In this document: positions 1-20,913 of the stretch, one piece after another | Layout: the number at the start of each line of letters is the position of its first letter | How positions within the stretch are numbered: the first letter of the stretch is position 1 | Origin: Spirogloea muscicola | Taxonomy: Eukaryota > Streptophyta > Zygnematophyceae > Spirogloeales > Spirogloeaceae | Reading direction: 5' to 3' | DNA length: 20,913 nt | Assembly (NCBI GenBank): GCA_009602725.1 | Contig: WELB01000174.1 | Span: 165,310 to 186,222, forward strand | The notes under the pieces: generated by a model | Databases searched by the model: none | What the model saw: the letters and a program-made list of their open reading frames with translations, nothing else | Told to the model about the DNA's origin: nothing | Position numbers and translations under genes: made by a program

Positions 1-3000
1 GGCCCGCTGCGCTCCGCCGCGGCGCACCTGCGGCAGCCGCCCGCCTGCCGCCTGGAGGCGGGCGCCGCTGTGGCGCCCGGCTTGCGCCTAACCGGGCAAG
101 CGCCTCCTTACAACGTCCTCATCACCGGCGGCACTAAAGGTGGGCAAGGCTGCGGTTGCACTCCGCGGCACTGGACGCCGCAGAGCCGAGGGCCACGGGT
201 CGCGCTGCCAGGTCCTTCAGTGGGCAGCAAGCTGCCATGGCGGGCAGGCGTGGGCTTGGCGCTGGCGCGGGAGTTCCTGCGCGAGGGCGACAGCGTCCTC
301 GTCTGCTCCCGGTCCGGTGAGAAGCAGCTCCGCCACGCTGGCGCAGCATCCGCCGCGCTGCCTGCCTGCTCGCCTGGGCGACGGCACCCGAAGCCCTGAG
401 CTCCGAGCCCTCTCCTCCTCCCAGCCCAAACGCCTTGAACCATCCGAGTCGGAGCTTCTCAGTGGTCAAGCTGAGTCGCTGAGCACGAGACCGAAGATCG
501 GCTCCCGCTCTTCGAGCTTAGGGCCACTGAGAGCGCCTCCCCTCGCAGGCGACAGAGTTGAGAGCACGGTGCGCGAGCTCCAGCAGGACCACAAGGGCGA
601 GCGTGTATGGGTGCGCCCAGCCCGCAGGACCTCTGGTGTTGCCTCATCCTGTTGATCGGCCATGTCGGGGTTAACTGGGCCTCAATTTGCCAGTCGAGGG
701 TTGACCTTGGCATTGGGATATGAGTGGCAAGCTCTGAATATGTCTGCTGTCCTTGCTGTGCTGAACTAGGGGACAACCTGCGACGTCAGTGTTGCCGAGG
801 ACGTAGAGCAGCTTGCTGTCTATGCCAAAGACCACCTTGACCACATTGACATCTGGGTGAGTCATTGTCATCTTCCGCTTGAGATCTTGCATATCTTGCG
901 GACGCATTGGAGCTGATCATGCTTGCAGTCCTTCCGCTGGACAGATCAACAATGCAGGCTCAAATGCGTATACATACAAGCCACTGATTGAGACGGACAA
1001 CAAGTCCATAGCGTAATTCCCTCTCCTTGCCTTTCATGTGATGTTACTGAGCTGTATACAGACTGCACAGGACCTCTGGCAGCTAAAATCATGTTGTTTC
1101 CTGTTCGGAAGCCTGAGTTGCTGTAGGTGCCATCAATTGCCAACATAAGCAAGCCTGAGTCGCTGAGATGCGATAAAAGCGTCTCTGCGAGCCTAGTACG
1201 GCAACATACGCAGGATATTCATGTGTGAAATATTGTGGTCTGGTGGGTCGTGCCCCAGGGAGATAGTGGAGACCAATACGTTGGGTGTGATGCTCTGCTG
1301 CCGTCAGGTGGGCCAAACCACAGTGTGACCCAAGCTCATCAATGTAGAGTGTGCAAGCACTTCTCTTGCAGCTTTTAACAAGTGCCAACTCCTCTAGACT
1401 GCAGTAGTCTAGGGTTTTAAGCATGTAGGAGTGCATCACATGACAAGCTGTGGACCCAATTGAGCTCTGTGCGTTGTCCATAGAACTTCAATAGTTGCGT
1501 ATCTGCCATACCTACGGCAGCAAGGTTGCTCAGTCAACTTTGTGATGACAGCAACTAGAGGTACCTCATGCACTATCATAGACATAGCGAATGCAGGGTG
1601 CAGAGGAGTCGGTTGAGCAGCTAGTGAGACTCATGGACAGGAAAAGTGTACGGCTGTCTCTATTTGGTGCATGCTTATAATTGCATCATGCAGCCATTTA
1701 GGCAGCTTGTTGATGGGAGTGACTTGCCTATCACTGTGCAAGAGGAAAGGTGCAACAGCTATTAGCAGGCACAGTAAGAACAACATCATGCTCGTTGGCT
1801 CCTCCATCACAAGTGCAGCCTGTGCTGCGGCCGCCGCAGGCTATAAGGATGATGCGGGAGCAGCCAAGGGGAGGGCACATCTTCAACATGGATGGCGCCG
1901 GATCAGATGGCAATGCGACCCCCAGGTATGGGAGCTGAAAATGTGTACAGTGGCTTCTCCCCATCCCTGCTTTCTCCATAGAATTCCGCCCGTTGCCATG
2001 CTCCACAGTTGCTGTTCTGTACCTTTAGGTTTATGTTTGTTCTCAATGCCACATTGCTCCAATTGCTGAGAAAACTTACTGCCAGCGTGAGCATGAGCTT
2101 TCTCTTGATTTCAAGGGCCTGCAGTAGTAGCAGATAAAACACATGACTTGTGGTGCTGTGGGCAACTTATACTGAGCTATTTTGTCTTGCAGGTACACTA
2201 AGTTGCTGGGTCGGTAGCATGCACCTTTCCTACATACCAAAGAGAAATTGGCATTGCCATGAAAGTTGCACAATCCATGATGCAGGTCCAGTCTTCGTAA
2301 TTAGTGGACAACCTTCATCAGATGTGCAGGTTTGCAGTCTACGGGGCAACCAAAAGAAGTTTAACTCAATTCACCAAGTCTTTGCAGGTAGCACTGTGAG
2401 CCCACACTTAGGTGGCCCTGCCTCCTCAAATAGACAGCATTAACGTACATGATTGATATCGAAGTTGCATGTCATTGGCTCAAACTCACAAAGTGAGTCA
2501 AGGAAACTTGTGAGACGCCTGTGTTATGTCTTCCGCTCGTTAATTTGCCCCTCTAGGCATCTGCCGTATGTGCTCTTCCGCTTCTGATCCTAAATTCTGC
2601 TTGAAATGTGCAGGCTGAGCTAAAGATGTTGAAGGTGGAGAATGTGGTCGTCCACAATCTCTCGGTTGGTGGCCTTCACTGTCCTATCCAGCAGTGGCTG
2701 CTCCTGCAGGCACAGCTGCTATTTGCAGCCACTGGCAGAAAGTTTAAAGCTTGACAATGGCAAGTGGATAGATCATGCACATTGCCATGCTGAGATGCCC
2801 CTTCACCTCATATTACAGCCAGGAATGGTGACGACGGACCTTTTAATGTCGGGTGGCGACACACGTCAGGTCCGTGTCTCTTTGCATGCCTTTCGTTTGT
2901 CCAACAGGTAGAGGACGCTTTGCTGTTGATAAGCATACTCTGTGGATGCAGCTGCGACTGTTGCCACAGTCTTTCTTGAGAGCTGAGAATGCTTCATGGT

Positions 3001-3471
3001 GCATTTATACACGTGCAGGCCAAGTTCTTCATCAACGCTCTAGCAGAGCCAGCTGACAAGGTCCTGCAACAACAGCATGGCAATCACATTTTTATGACCC
3101 TGTCGATTGCATGTGATCATGGGCCCCAATCAGGCTCCTCTGCAGATGAGGTCTTTTGATAATAACACCTTGTGCATAGTCCAGGTTGCACAGTACCTAG
3201 TTCCTAGGATTCGGCAAGTTCCTCGCGCTGGTGGCAGTAGCAGCACTTACATTCGCTTCCTCACGGGCCCAAAGGCCTACATACAAATACTTGGGGTCAG
3301 TTCCAGCTCATGCTCATGCAGGCACTTCGGCACATGCACGTTGTTACTATGTAGAGCTTCTGTGACCTTATAATGTGCAAAGAATCACAACACTGATGTC
3401 CTACTATTATCAATTTCTTACAGAGGCTGCTCTATGGAGCCAGGAAAAGTCGCTACCTTCCTGAGGATTGA
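1..3471 (+). CDS. NOL: Chlorophyll b reductase, NOL/NYC1 type (SDR family), 5'-truncated by the window edge
   Basis: Short-chain dehydrogenase that reduces chlorophyll b to 7-hydroxymethyl chlorophyll a in the plastid, the first step of chlorophyll b and LHCII breakdown (family knowledge). Exons read: 1-139, 248-316, 549-610, 770-856, 945-1012, 1259-1307, 1840-1925, 2330-2387, 2614-2664, 2819-2869, 3019-3060, 3185-3295, 3424-3471. They join in phase to 306 codons plus TGA. Seen: cofactor motif TGGTKGVG (residues 42-49 of the visible part), INNAGSNAY (120-128), the active-site Ser in GAGSDG (180), YGATK catalytic Tyr/Lys (191/195), then VVVHNLSPGMVTTDLLMSG, and a C-terminus ending YLPED. The blocks after the NNAG motif follow land-plant NOL almost block by block, which favours NOL over NYC1; no membrane segment is visible. 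The start codon and transit peptide lie upstream of the window. The donor after 3060 (GTCCTG) is weak. It faces the SCAMP gene tail to tail. Confidence 0.93.
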
Positions 3472-3552
3472 GCAAGTAGTCCAAGCAAACAGCCTTCGTT
3501 AAAAGCAGCACCAGAATTGCACGCACAACAGCTTAGTGAGTCACGTTACTGC

Positions 3553-3579
3553 ATGCACTCTTTGTTACAAAGAGTGCAT
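3553..3579. repeat. Perfect 12-bp stem hairpin between convergent genes
   Basis: ATGCACTCTTTG (3553-3564), a TTA loop, and CAAAGAGTGCAT (3568-3579) form a perfect inverted repeat. It lies 81 bp past the reductase stop and downstream of the SCAMP gene. On the minus strand the loop plus one stem base on each side reads TGTAA (3569-3565), the pentamer used as poly(A) signal in many chlorophytes, so it may help end the SCAMP transcript. The structure is seen; the function is inferred. Confidence 0.6.
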
Positions 3580-3687
3580 ACAGCCACAGATCTCCTATGC
3601 TGCTTGTCAAAGCGCAAATTGGCGGTCAAGGCCATAATACACTGGTGAGGACATGTTGGCAGATTCCAACAATGCCTGGTAGCTGTA

Positions 3688-3978
3688 CTAGCCTGCTCTG
3701 CTGCCAGCAACGTCTGCAAGCTCCTTCAGGGCGAAACAATAATTGATTGCAAAATCTGCCGTTGACAGCTCCCCCTTGCTTGCAATGTAAGGAAGGACAC
3801 CCAAGGCACCCACCGACTGCATTCTCGAATGTACCGCTATCTCCTGTACACCGTCTATGACAAGCTCAGCATGCTTATCTAGTGAAAAGGGCGAATTAAT
3901 GATTGGAAGATGTTGTGGATGAAGATGCCGGAGAGGCGCGCAGGTGCAGGCTGACTGGAGGAGTCCCCAGTGGCCTGC
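3688..3978 (-). other. Open frame overlapping the SCAMP 3' end: possible alternative C-terminus
   Basis: A frame different from the proposed last SCAMP exon stays open for about 100 codons to a TAG at 3690-3688. Its lower part looks protein-like, with peptides such as LDKHAELVIDGVQEIAVHS and GELSTADFAINYCFALKELA, and contains no stop. An acceptor ending in CTCCAG near 3956 would join it in phase to SCAMP exon 8 and give a tail of about 90 residues in place of 32. I do not recognise the family of this peptide. It may be a true alternative exon, part of another gene, or chance openness in a 3' UTR. Confidence 0.3.
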
Positions 3979-6176
3979 CTTCCCTTCTTGTCTGCACGTG
4001 GAGCACGTGTGTGACGGCTTCTGTCAAGCCCATTAGTCAAGCATGACTACATTATTTCGTCAAGAGCAGATTGGCTGCAATCAAACAATATTGGCACAAA
4101 TTCTGCCTGGTCCCTTGAGCTGATTGAAGGCATACCAGTGACACGTATAAGAGGGCAGTGCATGACAGCACCACATTGAATGACCACAAGCATGACTCTG
4201 TGATGGTCCATATATACCAAAAGCCTGACAGTTGCTTAGATCGCTGCGAATCAAGACCAAATCCAATTTTCAGGTACAGGTGCATCAATCAGGCCAAGTC
4301 AGAATCGCCTTTCAGCCCTGGCAAACTGTCCCCTTCTTCATCAATTTTATCTGTCAGCTGCTGTCATGTGACCTGTACTAGCAAAACCCAAGACAAGGCA
4401 TCACCTGCAAAGCAAGAACTGCTAAGGAGCTTACTGTCCAACACAGGCTGTCGACCTACCCGGGACTTGGCAAGATTCAACCAGCCGTTGTAATTCGAGC
4501 CACTCACAATGGAGAATGCAACAAATGCACAGATAAATACCTGCCACGGGCAATCTCTGTTTGTGTCATTCTTGCATGAAAGTCCAGAGTTATCAAAAGT
4601 GGCCTATGAATCTATGTATCATCAAGGCTTAGCATACTATTACACTCCGAATATGGTCTTGCCTGCCGCAATAGGCATTGAAGATGACTGCATGTGAGCA
4701 ACATGACTTGAGACATGATCGTCTAGCAGGTCAGGTATTCCACATGCAAGAGGGGCTCTCACCGGCTGGATGCACAGGTATCTTAGACTAAATTTGGGAT
4801 TGGTGGTTACAAGACCCTGCACAAGGATCACCGTGGATCTCTGTCAAGCTTGAACAATTGGATGGAGGAGTTAGCAACATGCACAAAAGTCAACTGCAAT
4901 GATAGTCTTGCGCCGCTCACCTTGTAACACATATAAAATGAGTACAAGCCAGCAACTGCGAAAATTACCACATCTGTTCCATAGCAATGGAGAACTTGTA
5001 ATGCAGTGAGAAGATGCAACATGAAAGTTCCCTCATGGAACTGCTGCCAAGCACACTGTGCCACTAAGAGCTGATTGGAGTGGCTCAAACAAGCACAGCC
5101 AGCCCTAAATTTGCTCACTAGTAATGAGCCTAGAATCTGTACATTGAAGTCTTCAATGCAGAGGCAAAGGCCATTCTATGACGAAGCTCATATTAGGTCA
5201 AAAAAAATGTTCACGTGGGAGAGACTCACTGAACGTTGAGTAGACAATTGTGACGGCCTTCCCGTGCACACCACCCAATGCCAGGATGATTGTGCCGCCC
5301 ACTGCAACCAACAATGCATCGAAGTATGATGCTTGGAACTTAAAAGCACTGCTTACTTGAACTAGAAGGATTCTTAGATCATCCTTTACTGCACTTCCTC
5401 CCCTCAGGCATGACCAGTCAAGGGCAGCATGCAAGATGCTCAGAGTCCTCAATTGCTTTGTACTAGTCAAGCAGGTCAAGCAACAAAACGCCCCATGCAA
5501 CTCCGTGTCATTGCAGAAGAATAGCGTCTATGCAAGGATCAGCAGATTATAATCCGCAGATGACTCAGACATAAGTGATGATGCCTTACGATTGCCCAAG
5601 CAGGAGCCGACCCCCACGACAAAGGCCAGATGAGCAAAGAAGGTGGCTCTCCTTGCATGTACATCCTGCGTGCAAAAGCATGCTAGAGCTTATGTCGCTG
5701 CCTATAAGAGCTGCAGGTAAGGACGGCAAAAGCGTATTGACTGCATCGCTTTCAACTGCTAGTTGCGTGGGTCAACAGGGAGATGCATGCAGTTTGACGC
5801 AAGTGGGAGTAAGGAAGGGTAAGTCCACAGCCCCATGCGCTCACCTCAACATCGTTGAGCTCATAGTGAAGTAAGCGCAGGAAAGGCGGGTAGTTGTAGT
5901 TTTCCCAATTGACCTGCTGGAGTGTATCTGGATGAGAACTTGCATGGTGAAAGCCAGTGTCTGACGTCCCTCCGAGCTTTGCAGCTTTGCTTTGCAGCAT
6001 GATGGCCTGTTATCCCCGAGATGTCATGGTGAGATCGTCACCTGCTGGTTGCCGATAAGAAAGGGGAAGGAGGAATGGCCGCCTCGGCTGAAGAGGCGGC
6101 CCAAGATGTACTTGAAGTCGTCGGCGATGTCGTGCGCAATGGTGGCCAGCACGCTGCGCAGGAGCTTGAACGCCAT
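3896..6176 (-). CDS. Secretory carrier-associated membrane protein (SCAMP)-like, nine exons
   Basis: SCAMPs are tetraspan proteins of post-Golgi, recycling and plasma membranes, acting in exo- and endocytosis. Minus-strand exons: 6176-6042, 6006-5845, 5665-5590, 5301-5230, 4973-4921, 4816-4763, 4540-4460, 4243-4145, 3991-3896; all phases agree and give 275 aa, close to plant SCAMPs (about 280). Seen: NYPPFLRLLHYELNDV (83-98), which matches the SCAMP signature before TM1 (W/YPPF...H-D-I...IP); four hydrophobic spans at about 107-135, 141-164, 177-198 and 219-244; a basic FYMCYKGL segment after TM2 where the family has a WYRPLY-like stretch; and GSNYNGW after TM3 where SCAMPs have a G..GW turn. 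N-terminal NPF repeats are absent. Doubts: the first intron would be only 35 bp, so translation may start at Met 6000 in exon 2; an acceptor ending at 5362 would add 20 aa to exon 4; the C-terminal exon has an alternative reading (see 3688-3978). Confidence 0.72.
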
Positions 6177-6422
6177 AGCTCGGCGCGCTCGAGGCGCGCG
6201 GGCGCATCCTCAGAGGCCCCGCGGCAGCGCAGAGGTCGCGAGCGCGCAGGCCGGGCGGCAGCGGCATGATGCACGGGAGCCGCAGCCAGCCACAGCGGTC
6301 ATGTCGCCATGGCAGATCGCGCGGCCGCCGCCCTGTGCTGCCGCCAGATCTTCGCCAGAGAGCCGGGCCAGAGGCGCGCGCGCGGCGCAGGGCGAGCAGA
6401 GTCAGCGAACTGGCTCGCCGCG

Positions 6423-6462: not shown

Positions 6463-6814
6463 ATGGCTTCAAACTGGGGGCTGCGACCGTAGTGCCCGGG
6501 GGGGTCCTAGGGGGCGCGGCTGCCCAGGCTCCCGTGGCCACGTGGGCAGCGTCAGCGCCACGCTGGACGGCGACGGGGCCCGCCGAGCCCAAGCCCAGCC
6601 GCTCGTCTGATATGACCAGCAGCGTCCGTCGTGCTCCGCCGGCTGCAGCTGGGCTGGCCCGCCCCAGCCGCGCGTTTCGCCGCCGCTGGGCCCAGTGCCC
6701 TCAGGTGGCCCCCCCTCCATTTTGAACCGTGTATTGGCTTGAATTGGCCTCCCTTTTCATTTCATGCGCCCCGCGCGCCTTCCCCCCTCCATTTTCTTTT
6801 TTTCCATGAAGAAG

Positions 6815-6884
6815 AGCGCGCCCATAGAAAAGAGGGGCTGGCCAAGCCAGCCCAAAAAAGAATGGACAATGTCCAAAGCCAAAG
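6815..6884 (+). repeat. Hairpin repeat, copy 1 (full core)
   Basis: GCGCGCCCATAGAAAAGAG is followed by the perfect hairpin GGGCTGGC-CAA-GCCAGCCC (6835-6853), an A-run, GAATGGACAATGTCC (6860-6874; its last 11 bases are an interrupted palindrome) and AAAGCCAAAG. The same order of blocks recurs at 11255-11317 and 11530-11600, and in reverse at 10307-10372. Confidence 0.8.
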
Positions 6885-6990
6885 CAGGCCCCGCATTCGC
6901 TGCTTAGCTCGTAGTTTGGCCCCTTCGAACCTTGTCAATTTCGGGCTGGCTTCTCACGGCCCTTGCCCCCATTGGGAGAGCCACTTCTTC
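6885..6990 (-). repeat. Hairpin repeat, variant copy with left extension
   Basis: Positions 6889-6970 match 20832-20913 at the window's right edge almost base for base (CGCTGCTTAGCTCGTAGTTT, then the GGGCTGGCTTCTCAC block). The reverse complement reads GGGCCGTGAGAAGCCAGCCC followed by GAAATTGACAAGGTTCGAAG, so it is a diverged relative of the 6815-6884 core in the opposite orientation. The outer part, ATTGGGAGAGCCACTTCTTC (6971-6990), recurs at 7151-7169 and 12803-12821, and in reverse at 12546-12565. Confidence 0.75.
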
Positions 6991-7011
6991 TAAGCAAGAG
7001 TAGCCGGAGAA

Positions 7012-7063
7012 AGGACTACACTACAACATACTGCAGAACACAGAAACGATGCAGAGGAAAGCT
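7012..7063 (+). repeat. Second module of the interspersed repeat
   Basis: AAGGACTACACTACAA, CTGCAGAACACAGAAACGATG and a GAGGAAAGCTC block. Close copies lie at 11620-11670 (plus) and, inverted, at about 10237-10292; a decayed copy lies near 11350-11398. In the fuller copies it follows the hairpin core at a distance of about 20-30 bp, so both belong to one longer element. Confidence 0.65.
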
Positions 7064-7137
7064 CGGCCCCCATGCGGGGCCCGTCGCCCAGGCCCCGTCC
7101 CCCCGCGAGTCGCTGTCTCCTCGCTCAGTCATGTCTT

Positions 7138-7225
7138 TTTCGCCCTTGCCCCCATTGGGAGAGCCACTTCTTTCCGGCTCCTTCAGACCTTGTCCACTCC
7201 TTTTGGGCTGCCTCCCACAGCCACC
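7138..7225 (-). repeat. Hairpin repeat, variant copy in the PABPN1 5' region
   Basis: Repeats CCCTTGCCCCCATTGGGAGA and GCCACTTCTT from 6961-6988, then CCTTGTCCACTCCTTTTGGG and CTGCCTCCCACAGCC, a second diverged core. It ends about 130 bp before the PABPN1 start codon, so it is probably transcribed as 5' UTR or lies at the core promoter. Confidence 0.65.
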
Positions 7226-7356
7226 CCGCCGCCGCGGCTCCGCCGCCGCCGCCGCTCGAGCCTCTGATCGGCGCCGCCGCCTGCGTTCGATTTTCATCCG
7301 GCGCGGGCGGCCCGCCGGCGGGGCCTCCTGCCGGCCCGGCACCGGGGTGCCCCGCC

Positions 7357-9309
7357 ATGGAGGATGAGCACGAGGTGTATGGCGGCGAGATCCCGGAGGT
7401 CGAGGGCGACCTCGACGGCGAGGACGGCCTGGCCGAGGACGGTGCCAAGGCGGACGACGCTGCCGGCGACGACGCCGCCTCCAAGGTGCGGCTGGCCGGC
7501 CCGCCAGGCGGGGCCAGGCTCGGCCAGCATGGCCCCCAAGAGGTGCCATTGCCGCTGCCGTCGGCCAGCTCTGACGCTCCCCCGCCGGCCGGACTCGCCA
7601 GGAGCTGGAGGAGATGAAGAAGCGGCTCAAGGAGATGGAGGACGAGGCGGCTGCGCTGCGGGAGATGCAGGCCAAGGTCGAGAAAGAGATGTCTGGTGGC
7701 GCTCAAGGTGCACTAGCTACCCCTGCTCTTGCTGGCACCCCACTTCCCGTGCCACCAGCGGGCAGTACGCGCAGCTGCCACGGTCCTGTGGCCGCTCAGT
7801 TGTAACGTACCGCCGTCTCAGACGCCACCAGCAGGAGCTTGCGTCTCTATGGCACAGAATTTTTGTCAGGGAAAAGGGGCGGATAGGGTTTAGGGTTGTG
7901 TGGGACTCTGCCGTGCCCACTGTCAGGGCTGCAGGCACGCTAGCTTGCTACGCTTGGGACGTGGAGCCTCAACAAGGGGCTTCTTAGCTACATTGTACTA
8001 CCGATCGCTTTTCTCGTGCTGTTTGAGTTGCTCCGCAGATCCTGGTGCCTTGGCTGCACAGCAGACCAGAGAGGAAGCCGATGCTAGATCCGTATTTGTC
8101 GGCAATGTAAGACATTCTGGGAGCTCAGCTTGTGCTCCTGCTGATGATTGGTGAATAGACTGCCAGTAACCTTCAACTTGACTAGCTTTGACCTGAACTT
8201 CAGCAACGTATTGGCAAGCTCTGAAAGTGTGGGTTCGCCCTATGTCCTTGCAGGTCGACTATGCTTGCACACCAGAGGAGGTGCAACAGCACTTTCAGTC
8301 GTGTGGCACGGTCAATCGAGTCACGATACTTACTGACAAATTCGGTCAGCCTAAAGGGTACGAGGATAGCATGTTGTGGCTGCGATGTTGCTCGTTGACC
8401 TCATCTGATAGCTCCGATCATTACCACTCTCTGTCTCTTGCTTGTTGCAACTCCGGCTTGCTTGATGAGCATTAGAGGCATTGACAGGAGGCTGCAGCTT
8501 TTGTTCTGGCGTGCTTGTTTGCATAACATTCTTGGAGTGGTGTTAGTGGGTTGCATGTGTGTAGTGTTGTACGTTGTTAGTCTTTGTCGATCAGAAATAG
8601 AATCATTTTCAGACTTATGTAGCCCATTGCTTATTCACCTATGCAGCTTTGCATATGTGGAGTTCCTTGAACTTGAGGCCGTGAGTAATGCAATCCTCCT
8701 GAATGAGTCAGAAATGCACGCCCGGCAGATCAAGGTAAATGTTGAAGGACACAAGTGCATAATGCTTTCGTCCATGACAGCGAGAGCCTTCTTCTATCAT
8801 CATGCCTGAACTACACAACATATGCAAGGAAGCTTCCATGCTAGTTCATCTATTGTCGCCCATGCAAGTTCATATACTGTCGCTCCTGGGCTCAACCATA
8901 CGCCCTGCACAGGTGACTGCTAAGAGGACCAATTTGCCAGGGTTGAAAGCACACCGAGGCAGACGGCCAGCGATGTACTCTCCTTATGGTTACAGACCTC
9001 GCAGGCCAGGTTATGGGTAGGCACTACTTATCCCGTTCACGGCTGGATGCAGTCCTGGTCTTGCTCCCTTCTAGTGACGACCCTCGCAATACTTCGCAAT
9101 GCCTCATATTGCCACTGATTGTCCTGGTCGAATATGAGGATGGAGCTCGAAAACAAGTGATCTAAGCATTGAGTGGAGGGTTCCTTGCAGGTATTCTCAG
9201 AGAAGCTGCACTAGTGATACAGGTCATCCTCACCTCTTCTTCTTGTCTTTTTCTGTCCAGGAGATTTCCTCGGTTCCGGCGGCCAACGCGATACCGCCCT
9301 TACTATTGA
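7357..9309 (+). CDS. PABPN1: Nuclear poly(A)-binding protein, PABPN1/PABP2 type
   Basis: Binds growing poly(A) tails in the nucleus, stimulates poly(A) polymerase and sets tail length (family knowledge). Exons: 7357-7485, 7602-7695, 8039-8106, 8254-8357, 8647-8734, 8913-9016, 9261-9309; phases agree, 211 aa. Order of parts: acidic N-terminus (1-43); a coiled-coil helix, [20 protein letters not shown] onward (44-74), as in PABPN1; one RRM from about 92 to 166 with RNP2 SVFVGN (92-97) and RNP1 KGFAYVEF (131-138); the family-typical GTVNRVTIL and KRTNLPGL; then an Arg/Tyr-rich tail ending RYRPYY. A single RRM behind a coiled coil separates it from cytoplasmic PABPs, which have four RRMs. The start is the first ATG in frame with the acidic block. 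Without removal of the last intron, translation would stop at TAG 9018-9020, right after RPGYG. Confidence 0.92.
7882..7893 (+). repeat. Short telomere-like stretch in PABPN1 intron 2
   Basis: AGGGTTTAGGGTT contains one TTTAGGG unit, the plant-type telomere repeat, plus a partial second. It lies in the second intron. It is too short to be a telomere relic with certainty; it may be a telo-box motif or chance. Confidence 0.3.
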
Positions 9310-10130
9310 GTCGGGGTCCTGACAAATCAGGCTCCTTCCGCTTCTGAGGAGCTAGGGGAGTGCAATGGATGGTCACTAACAAATGCTTCACTAAGCTCAT
9401 GTAGCTCGTGCAGTAGCTGAGTCGTATTGCCAAACTTCTTACCGCAATTCGAAAACGATGGGGGGTTTACTAGCCAACGCTCTGCTTACTGATCACTGAG
9501 GAGGCCGCTTGCCTGCATGAGAAGTCAATATCCTTTGTCTGCAACCCCCTCTAGCTGCGATGTTCCCCTTCACAGCCATTTGGCAAGGTCGTAGTTGAGT
9601 CACTGGCACCTGATAAGTCAAGTCAGCCGTGTCCGTTAGGCTACTTCTTCAAGGGGTGTTGCCTGATGTCAGCAGGCTAGGGTGTGTGGGCTTTTGAGGG
9701 CAAGGGTCTCCTCCGTGCCAGACAAGGGGGCGAGGGGGTGGGCCAAGTGTGGTCATGTAGAGGCAAGCTCCACTTACAGAGCATGAGGTGCGCGCAGCCA
9801 ATCCAGATGCTGCAGACATAAGAGTGTCGGAAGCAGGACGGGGCCAGCAGAGGAGACCGATGTCGCAGACTAAGCGTCAGTGTGCAGTCGACTGCGCCAC
9901 CTGCAGAGGCAGAGAGGCAGCAGCTTGACTTAGACAGCTTGGTGTAGGAAGACGAAGCCCCATGGAGCATGCCCAAGGCAGCAACTAAACACTCGTCCGC
10001 AGATACAATGCGATGGATAGCAGGCGCTGCCAGTGATCGATACGGCATGCAGTGTGCGTGCGCAAACGCCGCAAACAGAAGCCCGCCTGCTCCCTGTGCA
10101 GAGCTGGCCGCTGGGCAGTAGCAGGCGCTG
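9310..10130. other. Stretch after PABPN1 with no supported gene
   Basis: Holds the PABPN1 3' UTR and spacer. A minus-strand frame of 156 codons (10147-9677) is Ser/Ala/Cys-rich, has no recognisable motif and is probably chance. A plus-strand stretch behind a CTTCACAG acceptor-like site (about 9581-9670) reads VVVESLAPDK and GYFFKGCCLMSAG before a stop; it could be a stray terminal exon, but nothing joins to it convincingly. Confidence 0.4.
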
Positions 10131-10372
10131 TGACCACTGCTTCTCAAGGCGGCTGGGGGTGGAGTCGAGGGCTGGGGGGCGCGCTCCTCTCCTTGCGGCG
10201 AGCTACTCCGACCTGATGTTGCTCACTTGCGGGTAATGAGCTTCCCTTTGCATCGTCTTGCGTTTTGTAGTTTTTTGAGGTGTAGTCCTTTTTTCGGCAC
10301 TTTTCATTGGCTTTGACCATTGTCCATTCTTTTCGGGCTGGCTTTGCCAGCCCCTCTTCTCCATGGGCGAGC
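10130..10372 (-). repeat. Composite interspersed repeat, inverted copy
   Basis: Read on the minus strand: GTGCTCGCCCATGGAGAAGA, the perfect hairpin GGGCTGGC-AAA-GCCAGCCC (plus positions 10335-10353), GAATGGACAATGGTC (10320-10334), AAGGACTACACCTC, GACGATGCAAAGGGAAGCTC, GTGAGCAACATCAGGTCGGA and GTAGCTCGC. The same blocks in the same order make up 11530-11720 on the plus strand. This shows an ordered element of about 200-250 bp. Confidence 0.75.
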
Positions 10373-10690
10373 ACTTTCTTCTCAAGGTGGTTTGCGCTTT
10401 TTGGACCCTTCTGAACCTTGTCCATTGTGGACTGGTCTTCACACTGGAAGTGTCTTTCTCTTTCAAAGCCATCGCCTCTTTGGGGAGAGCTTGAGCTTCT
10501 TCCCTTGGGATAGATATTATATCGGGAGTGTGTGAGCTTCTTCTTATCCTCAAGGGGGGCGATGGCTGTGAAAGGCCATTCCAATAGGGCGGAGCTCTTA
10601 CCAAGGGGCGTTGGCGATGGCCAGCCCAAGAAGGGCAAGGTCCGTGCCAAAGAAACAGGAGCTCAATTCTAGAAGCGGCTGTGTAAAGTA

Positions 10691-10760
10691 AGAAAAGAAA
10701 GAAACAGCTCTTCCATTGTAAGGCAGTGGCTGTGCGAGGCCAGCCAAATTGAATTTTCCT
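10691..10760 (+). repeat. Degenerate repeat unit (AAACAGCTCTT block plus hairpin relative)
   Basis: GAAAGAAACAGCTCTTCC, ATTGTAAGGCAG and GGCTGTGCGAGGCCAGCC followed by AAATTGAATT. Related blocks occur at 12761-12799 (AGAAACAGCTCTTTC, CAATGTAAAGCAG) and 13025-13075 (AGAAATAGCTCC, GGCTGCGAGAGGCCAGGCCC). These look like older copies of the same family. Confidence 0.5.
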
Positions 10761-10954
10761 GCTGCTGATAGGCACCAAAGAGAGGGAGGGGCCAAGAAGC
10801 GCCGGTCGGCAGGCGGGTCAGAGAGAAGGCGCGCACTGCGCATGAAATGAAAGGGTGGCCTATTTAAGCCAGTACAGTATTTAAGCAGAAATTAGTGCAA
10901 AAGAACGTATTACATGAATTGAAGCCTTATGCTAAGGTGGCTAAAAGAAAATTA

Positions 10955-11020
10955 AGTGGCTCTTCCAAAGGGGGTGAGGGCTGTGAACAGTCGGCTCGGA
11001 GAAAGTTGACAAGGTCCGAA
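10955..11020 (+). repeat. Hairpin repeat, diverged copy
   Basis: AAGTGGCTCTTCCAAAGGGG, then GGGCTGTGAACAGTCGGCTC and AAGTTGACAAGGTCCGAA. The blocks follow the variant at 12546-12605 in order, with several substitutions; the stem is no longer perfect. Confidence 0.6.
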
Positions 11021-11156
11021 CGGGTAGAGTACCCACGGGTGAAGAGAAGAGGGGCTGGCGGGTGGCGGGCTCAACCCCGGGTGAGCACATACAATCTCGA
11101 CAAGCTGACTTGGGGAGCCGGAGCGCCGCTACGGAAGCCGGTGGCCTGCCTTAGAA

Positions 11157-11206
11157 GAAAGGGCTCGCCCATTGAGGATAGGGGCTGGAAAAGCCAGCCC
11201 CTATCC
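11157..11206 (+). repeat. Hairpin repeat with extended 13-bp stem
   Basis: GGGCTCGCCCATTGAGGATA leads into GGATAGGGGCTGG (11176-11188), loop AAAAG, and CCAGCCCCTATCC (11194-11206): a perfect 13-bp stem. The five outermost base pairs, absent from other copies, keep pairing, which suggests compensating changes or selection for the fold. The GAATGGACAATG block is missing. Confidence 0.7.
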
Positions 11207-11254
11207 CAAGCCTTAGAGCGCGCCGGAGTTCGGAGGACCCGTTAGTTAGGGGGG

Positions 11255-11510
11255 AGGGCTCGCCCATAAGAAAAGAGGGCCTAGCAAAGCCAGCCCAAAC
11301 AAGAATGGACAATGTCCGCAGGCCTCAAAAGGCCACAAAACAGTGCCAGGAAAGACAAAACTACACATCAAGACACGAAATGATGCAGATCGATGCTCAG
11401 TAACCACGATTGAGCAACAGCAAATTAGAATAACTCGAAGCAGGAAAAGCGGCACTCTGCTGAGACCCTTAGGCAGCAGCCATAGCGCGGCCAGCGCGCG
11501 TGTGGACCGC
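11255..11510 (+). repeat. Composite interspersed repeat, decayed copy
   Basis: GGGCTCGCCCATAAGAAAAG, a damaged hairpin (GGGCCTAGCAAAGCCAGCCC), GAATGGACAATGTCC (11303-11317), then diverged forms of the second module (11350-11398) and of the GTAACCACGATTGAGCAACA and GCACTCTGCTGAGACCC blocks. The block order equals that of 11530-11760. Confidence 0.65.
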
Positions 11511-11529
11511 ATGAGCCTGAGAGGGAAGT

Positions 11530-11765
11530 GCGCGCCCATAGAGAAGAAGGGCTGGCAAAGCCAGCCCAAAATAGAATGGACAATGTCCAAAGCCAAAGAA
11601 AGAGGAGCAGGAAAAAGGACTACACTACAAAACACTGCAGAACACATAGACGATGCAGAGGGAAGCTCAGTACCCACGAGTGAGCAACATCAGGTCTGAG
11701 TAGCTCGCTGCAGGGAAAGAGGCACTCCGCCGAGACCCAAAGGCGGCGGCCATAGCACGGCCTGC
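11530..11765 (+). repeat. Composite interspersed repeat, best-preserved copy
   Basis: GCGCGCCCATAGAGAAGAA, perfect hairpin GGGCTGGC-AAA-GCCAGCCC (11549-11567), GAATGGACAATGTCC (11574-11588), AAAGCCAAAG, AAGGACTACACTACAA, CTGCAGAACACATAGACGAT, GAGGGAAGCTC, GTGAGCAACATCAGGTCTGA and GAGGCACTCCGCCGAGACC. No protein frame spans it, so it looks non-autonomous. The last block recurs inverted near 20656-20672 (GGTCTCGGCGGAGTGCCTCT). Confidence 0.75.
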
Positions 11766-12230
11766 TCGTGTGTGGACGGCGTGGGCAAGGGAGCGCTGAA
11801 GCGATACGGCCAGGCGCATGCGGAAGACTCTGCGAGCGAACCGGCGGCGTTGAAGCCGGGCAGCGCCCTTGGCAGACCCGGCCGCCGGTCAATTGCCTGG
11901 CGGGCAAGCCGCTGAATGAGATCCAGCCAGCGGCTGCCGAAAGCCCCGTGTACATCCATTGCCAGGGCCGCGAACTCATCCCCCACTGGGTGATCAGCAT
12001 ATTTTCGCTGGGCTGGCCTCTCCCAGCCACCAGTTAATCTGGCCGCGCTTGCTCTCTATTTTCGCTCCTTGCCCCGGGCCGCCTGGCCGACCGCGTGCCC
12101 TGCAAACGACCCCGATCTGGTGGGATTGGCGGAGTCGATGCAGTCAGTTGTCACCACATCAGCGATGATGCGGGGACGGCCGCCGGGCGGGATGGCGACC
12201 AGGTCGGCGCGTCGCGTATGGGGCTGGCCG
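11760..12230 (-). pseudogene. Fragment of a LINE-like retroelement, C-terminal part, copy 2
   Basis: Minus-strand frames carry two blocks in the expected order. First, RRADLVAIPPGGRPRIIADV followed by a VTTDCIDS run and KERK (about 12221-12056), like the post-reverse-transcriptase region with an 'R..D......G....DV.VT' pattern in algal and protist LINE-like elements. Second, FAALAMDVHGAFGSRWLDL (about 11974-11918), followed by QRLARQA. A stop and a frame change separate the blocks, so it is dead. No endonuclease or catalytic RT motif is present. A hairpin-like GGCTGG-GAGAGG-CCAGCC lies between the two blocks (12011-12029). The assignment is from pattern memory and is moderate. Confidence 0.45.
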
Positions 12231-12341
12231 TCCGCGCCCAGCAGGATGGGCGGAGTTCTCCACCGCGACCTTAAAGCCGGCCTCCGAAAACACCCCCTGC
12301 ATACCATCTCGCAGGAGAGCGCTGGAGCAAGACCGCCAGTC

Positions 12342-12610
12342 TCATTCGAAAGACCTGAGCGAGGGGAGCCGGCAGCATTGAAGCCTGGCGGACCCGGCCC
12401 GCCGCTCGATGGCCCGCCGGGCAAGCCGCTGGAGGAGATCCAACCAGCGACTGCCGAAGGCCCCGTGAACGTCAATGGCCAGGGCCGCGAAGGCAGCGCC
12501 TGGAGGGAGGTCAGCGTACTTGCACTCCTTACTCCGAGCCGCCAAAGAAGAAGTGGCTCTCCCAATGGGGGCAAGGGCTGTGAGAAGCCAGCCCGAAAAG
12601 AATTGAGCCG
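12342..12610 (-). pseudogene. Fragment of the same retroelement, copy 1
   Basis: The minus-strand frame reads SKECKYADLPPGAAFAALA, then IDVHGAFGSRWLDLLQRLAR (about 12540-12425). It matches copy 2 at roughly 80 percent over the shared block, by DNA (plus strand 11870-11975 against 12385-12490) and by protein. Only the last block is left. A full variant hairpin repeat (12546-12605) abuts its 5' side. Confidence 0.45.
12546..12605 (+). repeat. Hairpin repeat, variant copy
   Basis: AAGAAGTGGCTCTCCCAATG, GGGGCAAGGGCTGTGAGAAG, then CCAGCCCGAAAAGAATTGA. It is the exact reverse complement of most of 6938-6990 and agrees with 20862-20913 inverted, so this variant has moved or been copied recently compared with the decayed copies. 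Confidence 0.75.
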
Positions 12611-12627
12611 CCAAAGCGACCGCGTGT

Positions 12628-12651
12628 CTTCTTCTTCTTCTTCTTCTTCTT
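12628..12651. repeat. (CTT)n microsatellite
   Basis: A run of about eight CTT units next to the retroelement fragment. Simple repeat, likely length-variable. Confidence 0.85.
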
Positions 12652-12719
12652 TCCCTCGCCCGCCTTCGTACTTGGCCACTCAGGCCCTCCATCACAATAT
12701 ACACGCTCCACCCTTTGGA

Positions 12720-13512
12720 TGAGCTTCTTACGTTACACCTTAAGCTCAGGGTCTGAGAAGTAAGAAACAGCTCTTTCTTTCTCTTTCAATGTAAAGCAGC
12801 ATTGGGAGAGCCACTTCTTCAAGCAGCAGAAGGTGCAAAGGCACGAAACTACTCTCCGTGACTTCTGCGAGTGGGCGCTCAATCGACTCTAGTCAGCAGG
12901 TGCAGATCAAGCGCTGCCGACTTTGCGGGGTTGGCGGAGTCGACGCAATCTGCAGTCACCAGGTAGTAGGGGCAGGGAGTCAGGGCAGGGCCCGCGCGCG
13001 TGGCCGGTGGGCGCGGGGACGGAAGTGAGAAATAGCTCCGTCAATGTTGAGGCACTGGCTGCGAGAGGCCAGGCCCAAGGAGATGTCCGCGGCAGGGGAA
13101 GCGAGCGAGCGAGCGCGGCCGCTGGGGCCGGTGGGGCGAGGCGGGCAAGCGGTGGCGCGCTCTTCCAGAAGGAGGCGCCGCTACAGCCGAGACGGGCCCC
13201 GCCGTCTCCGTCTCCTCGCTTCTTCAGCATTTAGCGCCACCCCCCCCCGCCCCCGCGCGCGCGCCAGCTGGCCCCGCCTCGTGCCCCCCCCCNCGCAGCT
13301 CACGCAGAGCCCCTGCCCGCCGGAGCGTGCCCTCGGCCTCTCGGCCCTCCAGCGCAGCCGCGCATGCGTCTTGGCCTCCCCCACGCCTCATCCGAGCGCC
13401 GCGGCTGGCCAGCCTCCGCCGCCTCCCTCCTCGGCGCGCCACTGTGCGGGCGTCTCGCGGCTGCATCGGCGGCGGCGGCAGTGACGGCGGCGGCGCCGAC
13501 TGCTGGAGGACC
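12720..13512. promoter_or_regulatory. CUL1 upstream region
   Basis: No exon is supported here. It contains degenerate hairpin-repeat pieces (12761-12821, 13025-13075), C-runs around 13242-13295 with one undetermined base at 13293, and GGC-rich 5' UTR-like DNA before the CUL1 start. No TATA box was recognised. Confidence 0.45.
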
Positions 13513-13557: not shown

Positions 13558-19057
<5,500 letters not shown>

Positions 19058-20120: not shown

Positions 20121-20320
20121 TTGCAAGCAAGTGTAATCTTTGTTTACACTGATTCTGATTGGGCTTGTGGCTTGAAAAACAAATGCTCAACTACCGGGTA
20201 CGTCTCTTTGCTGTATATAAACATTTCGTGTACTTCAAACAAACGAAGCTACAGATCCGCTGTCAATGGTGGAAGCAGAGTACTTGGCTACGTGCTGTCT
20301 GGAAAGCAGTCGGCGGCGTT
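20121..20320 (+). pseudogene. Ty1/copia retrotransposon remnant, RNase H end of Pol
   Basis: The plus strand reads VYTDSDWACGL and KCSTTGYVSLL (20136-20208), the family's 'Y.DSDWAG......STTGY.F' stretch. A frame change follows, then SMVEAEYLATCCLE (about 20262-20303), the 'LS..EAEY.A' catalytic block. The order and spacing are right, but the frames differ and the Trp-Lys-Ser-Lys-Lys-Gln linker is degraded. No integrase, RT or LTR was recognised around it, so this is a dead fragment. Confidence 0.75.
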
Positions 20321-20580
20321 GAAGCCGGGCTGCTCACCCTGCTGTCCCTGTCAACGATCGATAGCCCGCCGTGCAAGAAAGCCGCTGCAGAGAAAAGAAG
20401 GGCAGAAAGGCGCCGGAAATACCACAGCTATGCAAGCGACTACGGACTAATAATATGGAGGCCACCAACTGAGGCTTGGGCAACCTGGGTAACCCATGTT
20501 AGTGCAATGTCGAAGGAGACGGCCGGTGTAGCTGAGGTGGCAGGTCCAGTACCAGTTCGCTTTACTTCCACTCTTTGAGA
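20309..20580 (+). other. Region after the copia remnant with an open frame of unknown nature
   Basis: The plus frame up to 20578 includes CKKAAAEKRRAERRRKYHSY and the stretch YGLIIWRPPTEAWATWV. The 5' end shares GGCGGCGTTGAAGCCGGGC with 11848-11866 inside the LINE-like fragment. It may be another retroelement scrap; no domain is recognised. Confidence 0.3.
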
Positions 20581-20639
20581 TCAGAGACCGCATTTCCCTT
20601 CACTTCGCTCGCCCAGGTATCCCACATGCGCCTGGCGGT

Positions 20640-20913
20640 CTCGTTTCAACGGTCTCGGCGGAGTGCCTCTTTCCCACGCCTTGCATCTGCGTGCTGGCCG
20701 TGCTCTCGCTGCGGCCTCCGGCTTTCGTCAGGGGGATAGTTTACCGGCAGCTAGTCTGTCGGATGTGAGGCTCCTCACTCGTAACTACTAAGTGGTTCAT
20801 CCTCCCCCGTTCTGCCATAGCCTCTTCAGGCCCCGCAGTCGCTGCTTAGCTCGTAGTTTGGCCCCTTCGAACCTTGTCAATTCTTTTCGGGCTGGCTTCT
20901 CACAGCCCTTGCC
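20640..20913 (-). repeat. Interspersed hairpin repeat at the right window edge
   Basis: GGTCTCGGCGGAGTGCCTCT (20654-20673) is the inverse of the tail block at 11720-11740. Positions 20824-20913 repeat 6880-6970 (GCCCCTTCGAACCTTGTCAA, TTCTTTTCGGGCTGGCTTCT, CACAGCCCTTGCC) and run off the end of the window. Confidence 0.7.

Follow-up and report, generated by a model that had tools for sequence, protein, structure and literature searches.

What does a short hairpin repeat, scattered in both orientations through a stretch of the genome of the alga Spirogloea muscicola, represent: an element in its own right, or the visible end of a larger one? The question is raised by 20,913 nucleotides of contig WELB01000174.1 (positions 165,310 to 186,222; this whole stretch is referred to here as the window), for which an original prediction made from the sequence alone had described a family with a unit of about 65 bp resembling foldback or structured-RNA mobile repeats. 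The existence of a mobile, dispersed, hairpin-bearing family with subfamilies was upheld by our analysis. However, we consider it likely that the hairpin repeat is not a stand-alone element and that it is instead the 3' terminus of a longer, protein-coding element, a non-long terminal repeat retrotransposon of the long interspersed nuclear element (LINE) type. The family is probably new, although of a known kind of element.

Repeat copies and the sequence adjoining the hairpin

The ten copies named in the original prediction are all interrelated. A pattern composed of the hairpin, a spacer and GAATKGACAA has four matches in the window, compared with none in 100 dinucleotide shuffles, and a family profile based on 11 seed copies (whose own E-values are circular) gives 14 matches above the inclusion threshold and 17 with E<0.1. 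These searches confirm the repeats as genuine and in excess of chance. Two subfamilies are clear and a third was judged by eye, and the repeats cluster at 6.8-7.2, 10.1-13.1 and 20.3-20.9 kb, in regions that are intergenic by eye. The expectation that they belong to no known family agrees with the lack of Rfam matches at gathering thresholds, and a Pfam search of the open reading frames (ORFs) and ORF pieces returned no transposon family.

Several details of the initial description had to be revised. The order of motifs that it gave, ending in an A-run and a terminal motif after the hairpin, is complete in four copies (6811, 10307(-), 11255, in which one stem pair is broken, and 11530), while the rest are partial or belong to the second subfamily. 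The copy placed at 7138(-) is actually two adjoining half-copies (7142-7172 and 7171-7224). At 11157 we confirmed the extended stem with its 13 pairs (11176-11206), but the part with the A-run and GAATGG is missing, and the copy at 10955 is related to the family, but its stem is degraded (inner pairs 4/6). Lastly, the unit of about 65 bp did not hold, since the long copies stay similar through further 3' untranslated region (UTR) and then through a reading frame. The long copies are as follows, with strands given in the reading sense of the element, which is opposite to the "+" of the original prediction.

11524..12314, minus strand: inner copy of the putative LINE, with frameshifted ORF end, 3'UTR, hairpin and 3' end; contains insertion E
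11667..11669, minus strand: ORF stop codon of the inner copy (589-591 of 734)
11549..11567, minus strand: inner-copy hairpin, GGGCTGGC-TTT-GCCAGCCC (691-709 of 734)
11252..12543, minus strand: outer copy of the putative LINE, divided by the inner copy into 11252-11523 and 12311-12543
10169..10384, plus strand: putative LINE 3' end with ORF end (..SYSDLMLLTCG, stop), UTR and hairpin
20604..20913, plus strand: putative second-lineage LINE 3' end with ORF end (..SLSDVRLLTRNY, stop), UTR and hairpin, clipped by the window end
6811..7072, minus strand: putative LINE 3'UTR copy, divided by insertion D into 6811-6886 and 6992-7072

The inner copy is 791 bp in length, or 734 nt without the nested insertion E, with GAGAG as a 5-bp direct repeat on either side (11519-11523 and 12315-12319). 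Its 3'UTR (11524-11666) comprises 143 nt, with 25 nt separating the hairpin from the end of the element. Using the 734-nt sequence as the query against the window, we obtained identities of 83% over 212 nt to 10169-10376(+), 93% and 85% to 6884-6811 and 7072-6992(-), 73% and 74% to the two parts of the outer copy (11523-11252 and 12543-12311(-)), and 83% over 42 nt to 11200-11159(-). The second-lineage copy at 20604-20910(+) is 62% identical over 314 columns, which include an exact piece of 25 nt, and two ORF pieces, 12961-12908(-) and 20393-20311(-), are 74% and 71% identical, respectively.

Four copies have the ORF end and its stop in common, the frame ending in ..AASYSDLMLLTRGY in the inner copy, ..AASYSDLMLLTCG in the copy at 10169, ..AASLSDVRLLTRNY in that at 20604 and ..ASSYSNLLLLNRGY in the outer copy, in each case followed by the stop, the UTR and the hairpin. 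Comparison of the inner and outer copies over 54 upstream ORF codons revealed 7, 7 and 23 differences at codon positions 1, 2 and 3, and a ratio of nonsynonymous to synonymous substitution rates (dN/dS) of 0.17. Together with the common ORF end, this bias in codon positions and the low dN/dS indicate that the repeat element was once coding.

In the outer copy, similarity in the frame extends to about 12630, beyond insertion A, and a (TCT)n run at 12627-12650 lies at the 5' edge of this copy; it may be target sequence or part of an older insertion. The pieces at 20311-20393 (-) and 20604-20910 (+) adjoin each other in the element (query 337-416 and 418-711) and lie in opposite orientations here, an arrangement that resembles a 5' inversion as in twin priming, with the 210 bp between them unexplained.

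Short insertions and their flanking repeats

Five short insertions contain nothing but the 3' end of the element; they measure 19, 47, 54, 57 and 105 bp.

12548..12604, minus strand: insertion A, 57 bp, second lineage, interrupting the outer-copy ORF; 12-bp repeats GAGCCGCCAAAG
11156..11209, minus strand: insertion B, 54 bp, carrying the 13-pair stem (11176-11206); 8-bp repeats GCCTTAGA
12802..12820, plus strand: insertion C, 19 bp, comprising just the element's final bases; 8-bp repeats AAGCAGCA
6887..6991, plus strand: insertion D, 105 bp, of the second lineage and flanked by the 5-bp repeat AAGCA (6882-6886 and 6992-6996)
12010..12056, plus strand: insertion E, 47 bp, interrupting the inner-copy ORF; 10-bp repeats TATTTTCGCT

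Insertion C was assigned through its 19 bases, which match the terminal bases of A and D (profile E 0.05), and insertion E by its hairpin and a weak profile match (E 0.032) only. The exact direct repeats flanking A, B, C and E measure 12, 8, 8 and 10 bp, respectively, whereas of 3000 intervals placed at random in 6.7-13.0 kb and allowed six bases of slack at each end, 0.8% had repeats of 8 bp or more and 0.17% of 10 bp or more. Four insertions, each with its own flanking repeat of 8-12 bp, are also at odds with one local duplication as the source of the copies, the explanation that the original prediction had set against itself. At least three insertions are nested in other copies, and for two of these insertions the site is in the reading frame: on removal of A and E the ORF frame continues, as ..HAVALAARSKECKYADLPPG.. 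and ..GHAVGQAARGKERKYADHPVG.., and D and the inner copy interrupt other copies at points where the query runs on. Other direct repeats were considered as target-site duplications and rejected; one of 9 bp around 10541-10600 was taken to lie within the repeat itself, one of 8 bp at 11500/11770 sits in matching sequence of the outer and inner ORFs, and the remainder were self-matches or 7 bp in length.

Target-primed reverse transcription by LINEs characteristically leaves insertions that agree at the 3' end but vary at the 5' end and are flanked by duplications of differing length. The five short insertions and the 791-bp inner copy have the same kind of 3' end, judged for E by its hairpin only, and differ in their 5' ends and duplications, and we therefore attribute them to target-primed LINE copying. 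Their 3' ends are T/C-rich (e.g., CTTCTTC). The features expected of a LINE that we observed are thus an ORF ending just ahead of the 3'UTR, 5' truncation and target-site duplications of variable length, and the stem-loop near the 3' end of the 3'UTR is that expected of a "stringent" LINE.

Other types of mobile element would account for part of this pattern. A foldback or miniature inverted-repeat transposable element (MITE)-like DNA transposon with a central hairpin would be short, hairpin-bearing, nested and present in both orientations, as the repeats are. We give this explanation hardly any weight, as no terminal inverted repeats were seen by eye at the ends of the inserts, the flanking repeats vary from 5 to 12 bp and the long copies have an ORF end and a UTR. 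It is also improbable, if less so, that the short insertions represent an independent retroposon of about 50-65 nt resembling a short interspersed nuclear element (SINE), with a 3' end in common with a LINE and moved by the enzyme of that LINE. The similar sizes of the bounded insertions of 47, 54 and 57 bp would be in keeping with such a retroposon, and green-algal LINE/SINE pairs with a common 3' end are known from the elements described in PMC3747384. However, the five insertions differ in 5' end and in length, from 19 to 105 bp, and A, C and D contain only sequence of the element's 3' end. There was no Rfam match, and ARAGORN detected 0 tRNA genes in the window, although a decayed tRNA-like head could escape detection.

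Under the LINE reading that we prefer, the unusual stem of insertion B can be understood as a by-product of copying. The 13-pair stem folds with -31.7 kcal/mol (z-score -4.75), and after the hairpin B has the complement of its own other flank, with one bulge, in place of the A-run and GAATGG. The extended stem had been taken as a sign that the fold matters, but snap-back copying explains it better than selection on the fold and is the simplest reading of this one copy: the first complementary DNA (cDNA) strand of B would have folded back on its own hairpin and been extended, and only then joined to the target. It is conceivable, although somewhat doubtful, that the stem arose later, in DNA replication, through the established process of quasi-palindrome correction and not by snap-back of cDNA; against this, the copied stretch is located at the target junction and ends at the flanking repeat.

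Insertion E starts at the first base of the hairpin and insertion A ten bases ahead of it, and B ends in the snap-back. These ends suggest that copying stalls at the hairpin. The copies were found mostly via the hairpin, however, so that the sample is biased with regard to stalling, and D and the inner copy, counter to this suggestion, reach further than the hairpin.

Conservation and possible role of the hairpin

The hairpin block has been kept while the rest of the UTR has diverged. With gap columns counted as differences, the inner copy and the second-lineage copy, whose part beyond the hairpin is cut off, are identical at 28/38 positions in the hairpin block, 28/90 in the remaining UTR and 116/185 in the ORF end. 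The corresponding values for the hairpin block and remaining UTR are 34/38 and 44/87 between the inner and outer copies, and 35/38 and 64/80 between the inner copy and its close relative at 10169; ORF-end values for the outer copy and 10169 are lowered by unaligned ends and were left aside. This retention of the hairpin in a diverging UTR fits the recognized 3' hairpin of a stringent LINE, and conservation is a better sign of hairpin function than covariation.

The folding and pairing results were mixed. Two first-lineage copies fold better than their shuffles (z-scores of -3.2 and -2.9), and an outer helix, TGTCCAT/ATGGGCG, surrounds the inner stem with 7/7 pairs in four first-lineage copies and with 6, 5 and 4 of 7 pairs in three other copies, a C-G pair being replaced by A-U at one position in two. 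In a test of pairing and covariation with 15 sequences, slid controls and 500 shuffles, 83% of cells were paired, compared with 27-47% in the slid controls, and the shuffles reached 83% in 71/500 cases.

Several results weigh against the interpretation of the repeat as the 3' end of a LINE. Covariation of the stem, the check proposed in the original prediction, was no better than in shuffles (its score was reached by 123/500) and one slid control scored higher, and there was no clear excess of folding in the second-lineage insertions D and A or in copy E (z-scores of 0.98, -1.13 and -1.47). Repeats as long as the 5 bp at D and the inner copy occur in 20% of random placements, and clear end repeats of at least 8 bp were found in just 4 of an initial set of 19 candidate intervals. 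At their 3' ends the bounded insertions have neither poly(A) nor a clear tandem tail. The copies are dead, the upstream ORF piece and the ORF end being out of frame with each other and the outer copy carrying an extra stop. In addition, the ORF pieces yielded nothing in Pfam or PDB, and no reverse transcriptase or endonuclease was identified in the window, which holds just the last part of the ORF.

The weakness of the covariation also bears on whether the repeats are LINE 3' ends in which the hairpin is a passive piece of UTR, similar among copies through recent common descent only. Such passivity would be consistent with a covariation score that shuffles attain, and with an outer helix known from seven copies, among which there is a single compensatory difference and one copy has 4/7 pairs. 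We regard it as unlikely because the hairpin block is far better kept than the rest of the UTR, both between the lineages and between the inner and outer copies.

If the hairpin is instead a recognized part of a LINE, as we favor, the reverse transcriptase of the element would recognize the hairpin block in the RNA and copying would begin at the tail by target-primed reverse transcription. Frequent early stops in copying, perhaps at the hairpin, would leave very short stubs, and these stubs may be what the original prediction took for a 65-bp family. More tentatively, the recognition hairpin could also be the point at which reverse transcription fails, such that stubs of 19-57 bp with target-site duplications fill the genome, some of them closed by snap-back into a longer palindrome.

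Other features of the window and comparison with known elements

Weaker or decayed relatives of the family are present at 10397-10505, 10541-10600, 10595-10660, 10692-10760, 12010-12056, 12802-12820 and 13025-13085. The remaining copies to which a type could be assigned are these.

10951..11034, minus strand: second-lineage 3' end with degraded hairpin (profile and pair counts)
7142..7224, plus strand: two adjoining half-copies (profile)
10397..10505, plus strand: degraded copy with extra sequence within the hairpin (profile and pair counts)
10692..10760, minus strand: third-subfamily 3' end, the subfamily judged by eye (profile)
13025..13085, minus strand: third-subfamily 3' end, by eye (weak profile match, E 0.074)

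The decayed copies at 10397-10505 (+) and 10541-10600 (-) face each other.

The genes in the window are of eukaryotic style and have introns. Three exon pieces at 17140-18424 match Pfam Cullin, within a gene with many introns that extends by eye over about 13.5-19.1 kb, and RRM_1 matches a piece at 8254-8358 in a gene of about 7.4-9.3 kb by eye, which resembles a nuclear poly(A)-binding protein by eye. The broken hairpin copy at 7142-7224 lies about 140 bp upstream of the first ATG of the RRM gene, as judged by eye. Two more gene-like, intron-bearing stretches were noted by eye at 1-3500 (+) and 3500-6200 (-), the first of which is somewhat like a short-chain dehydrogenase, with no Pfam match for its piece at 2150-2443.

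One frame had viral Pfam matches below threshold (REV, 16.7 bits versus 22, and UL78, 10.7 versus 50), which were rejected. For an ORF piece, structure modeling from the single sequence gave a mean predicted local distance difference test (pLDDT) score of 45.8, too poor for use. In the ORF piece RRADLV..IIADVV a candidate motif of restriction-like endonucleases was weighed, and we leave this assignment undecided. Three DNA patterns and one protein query identified no related locus in viral contigs, and none of the six stretches matched there by a peptide pattern was confirmed. The sole match to one pattern in genome contigs, in a metagenome-assembled genome (MAG) of the Deltaproteobacteria, is taken to be due to chance, as the family profile finds nothing there.

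We found no published description of the hairpin, although the literature is not searchable by sequence and its absence is unproven. A 3'UTR stem-loop is reported, in the sections of PMC5135761 that concern it, to be essential for SART1, UnaL2, ZfL2 and R2, and hairpins are reported there in algal L1 elements; a lineage of plant L1 elements has a 3' hairpin with compensatory changes, as outlined in PMC3747384. The window copies are similar to UnaL2, SART1, ZfL2 and R2 in having a hairpin near the end of the 3'UTR that is kept while the UTR diverges (PMC5135761), and, as with stringent LINEs, there are short insertions that retain the 3' end. They differ from the stringent LINEs as described in showing no clear tandem tail such as (TGTAA)n, and recognition by the reverse transcriptase is inferred here.

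Within the green lineage, LINE1-1_ZM, and L1-1_CR with SINEX-3_CR, also have a conserved 3' end and a hairpin, compared by description only (PMC3747384), but L1-1_CR ends in poly(A), unlike the window copies. Zepp of Chlorella/Coccomyxa is a green-algal LINE that forms nested clusters, as the window copies do, according to the accounts in PMC3446292 and PMC3747384; however, the tail of Zepp is (A)n and each chromosome bears a single cluster of it, whereas the window copies have no poly(A) and lie between ordinary genes. RandI/Dualen elements are green-algal LINEs without poly(A), and the related SINEX-2_CR has a (CTTT)n tail (excerpts of PMC3747384 and PMC4640811). The tails given for RandI, (ATT)n or (CTATTT)n, are not seen at the insert ends here (PMC3747384). 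RandI/Dualen elements are also expected to carry both APE and restriction-like endonuclease domains; the Pfam and PDB searches, which covered pieces from the last part of the ORF, showed neither.

Recognition of LINE 3' hairpins has been tested experimentally mainly in animals, with hairpins reported in algal and monocot L1 elements, in the portions of PMC5135761 and PMC3747384 that treat them. A family in which the hairpin is kept while the UTR diverges is a natural comparison for such recognition. The short, well-bounded stubs would allow genome-wide counts of where copying stops relative to the hairpin and, for annotation, what is recorded as a "hairpin repeat family" can be just the end of a LINE that happens to show. 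If the hairpin is indeed also the point at which copying fails, the LINE would mass-produce scattered short hairpins, each stub marking the end of one copying event.

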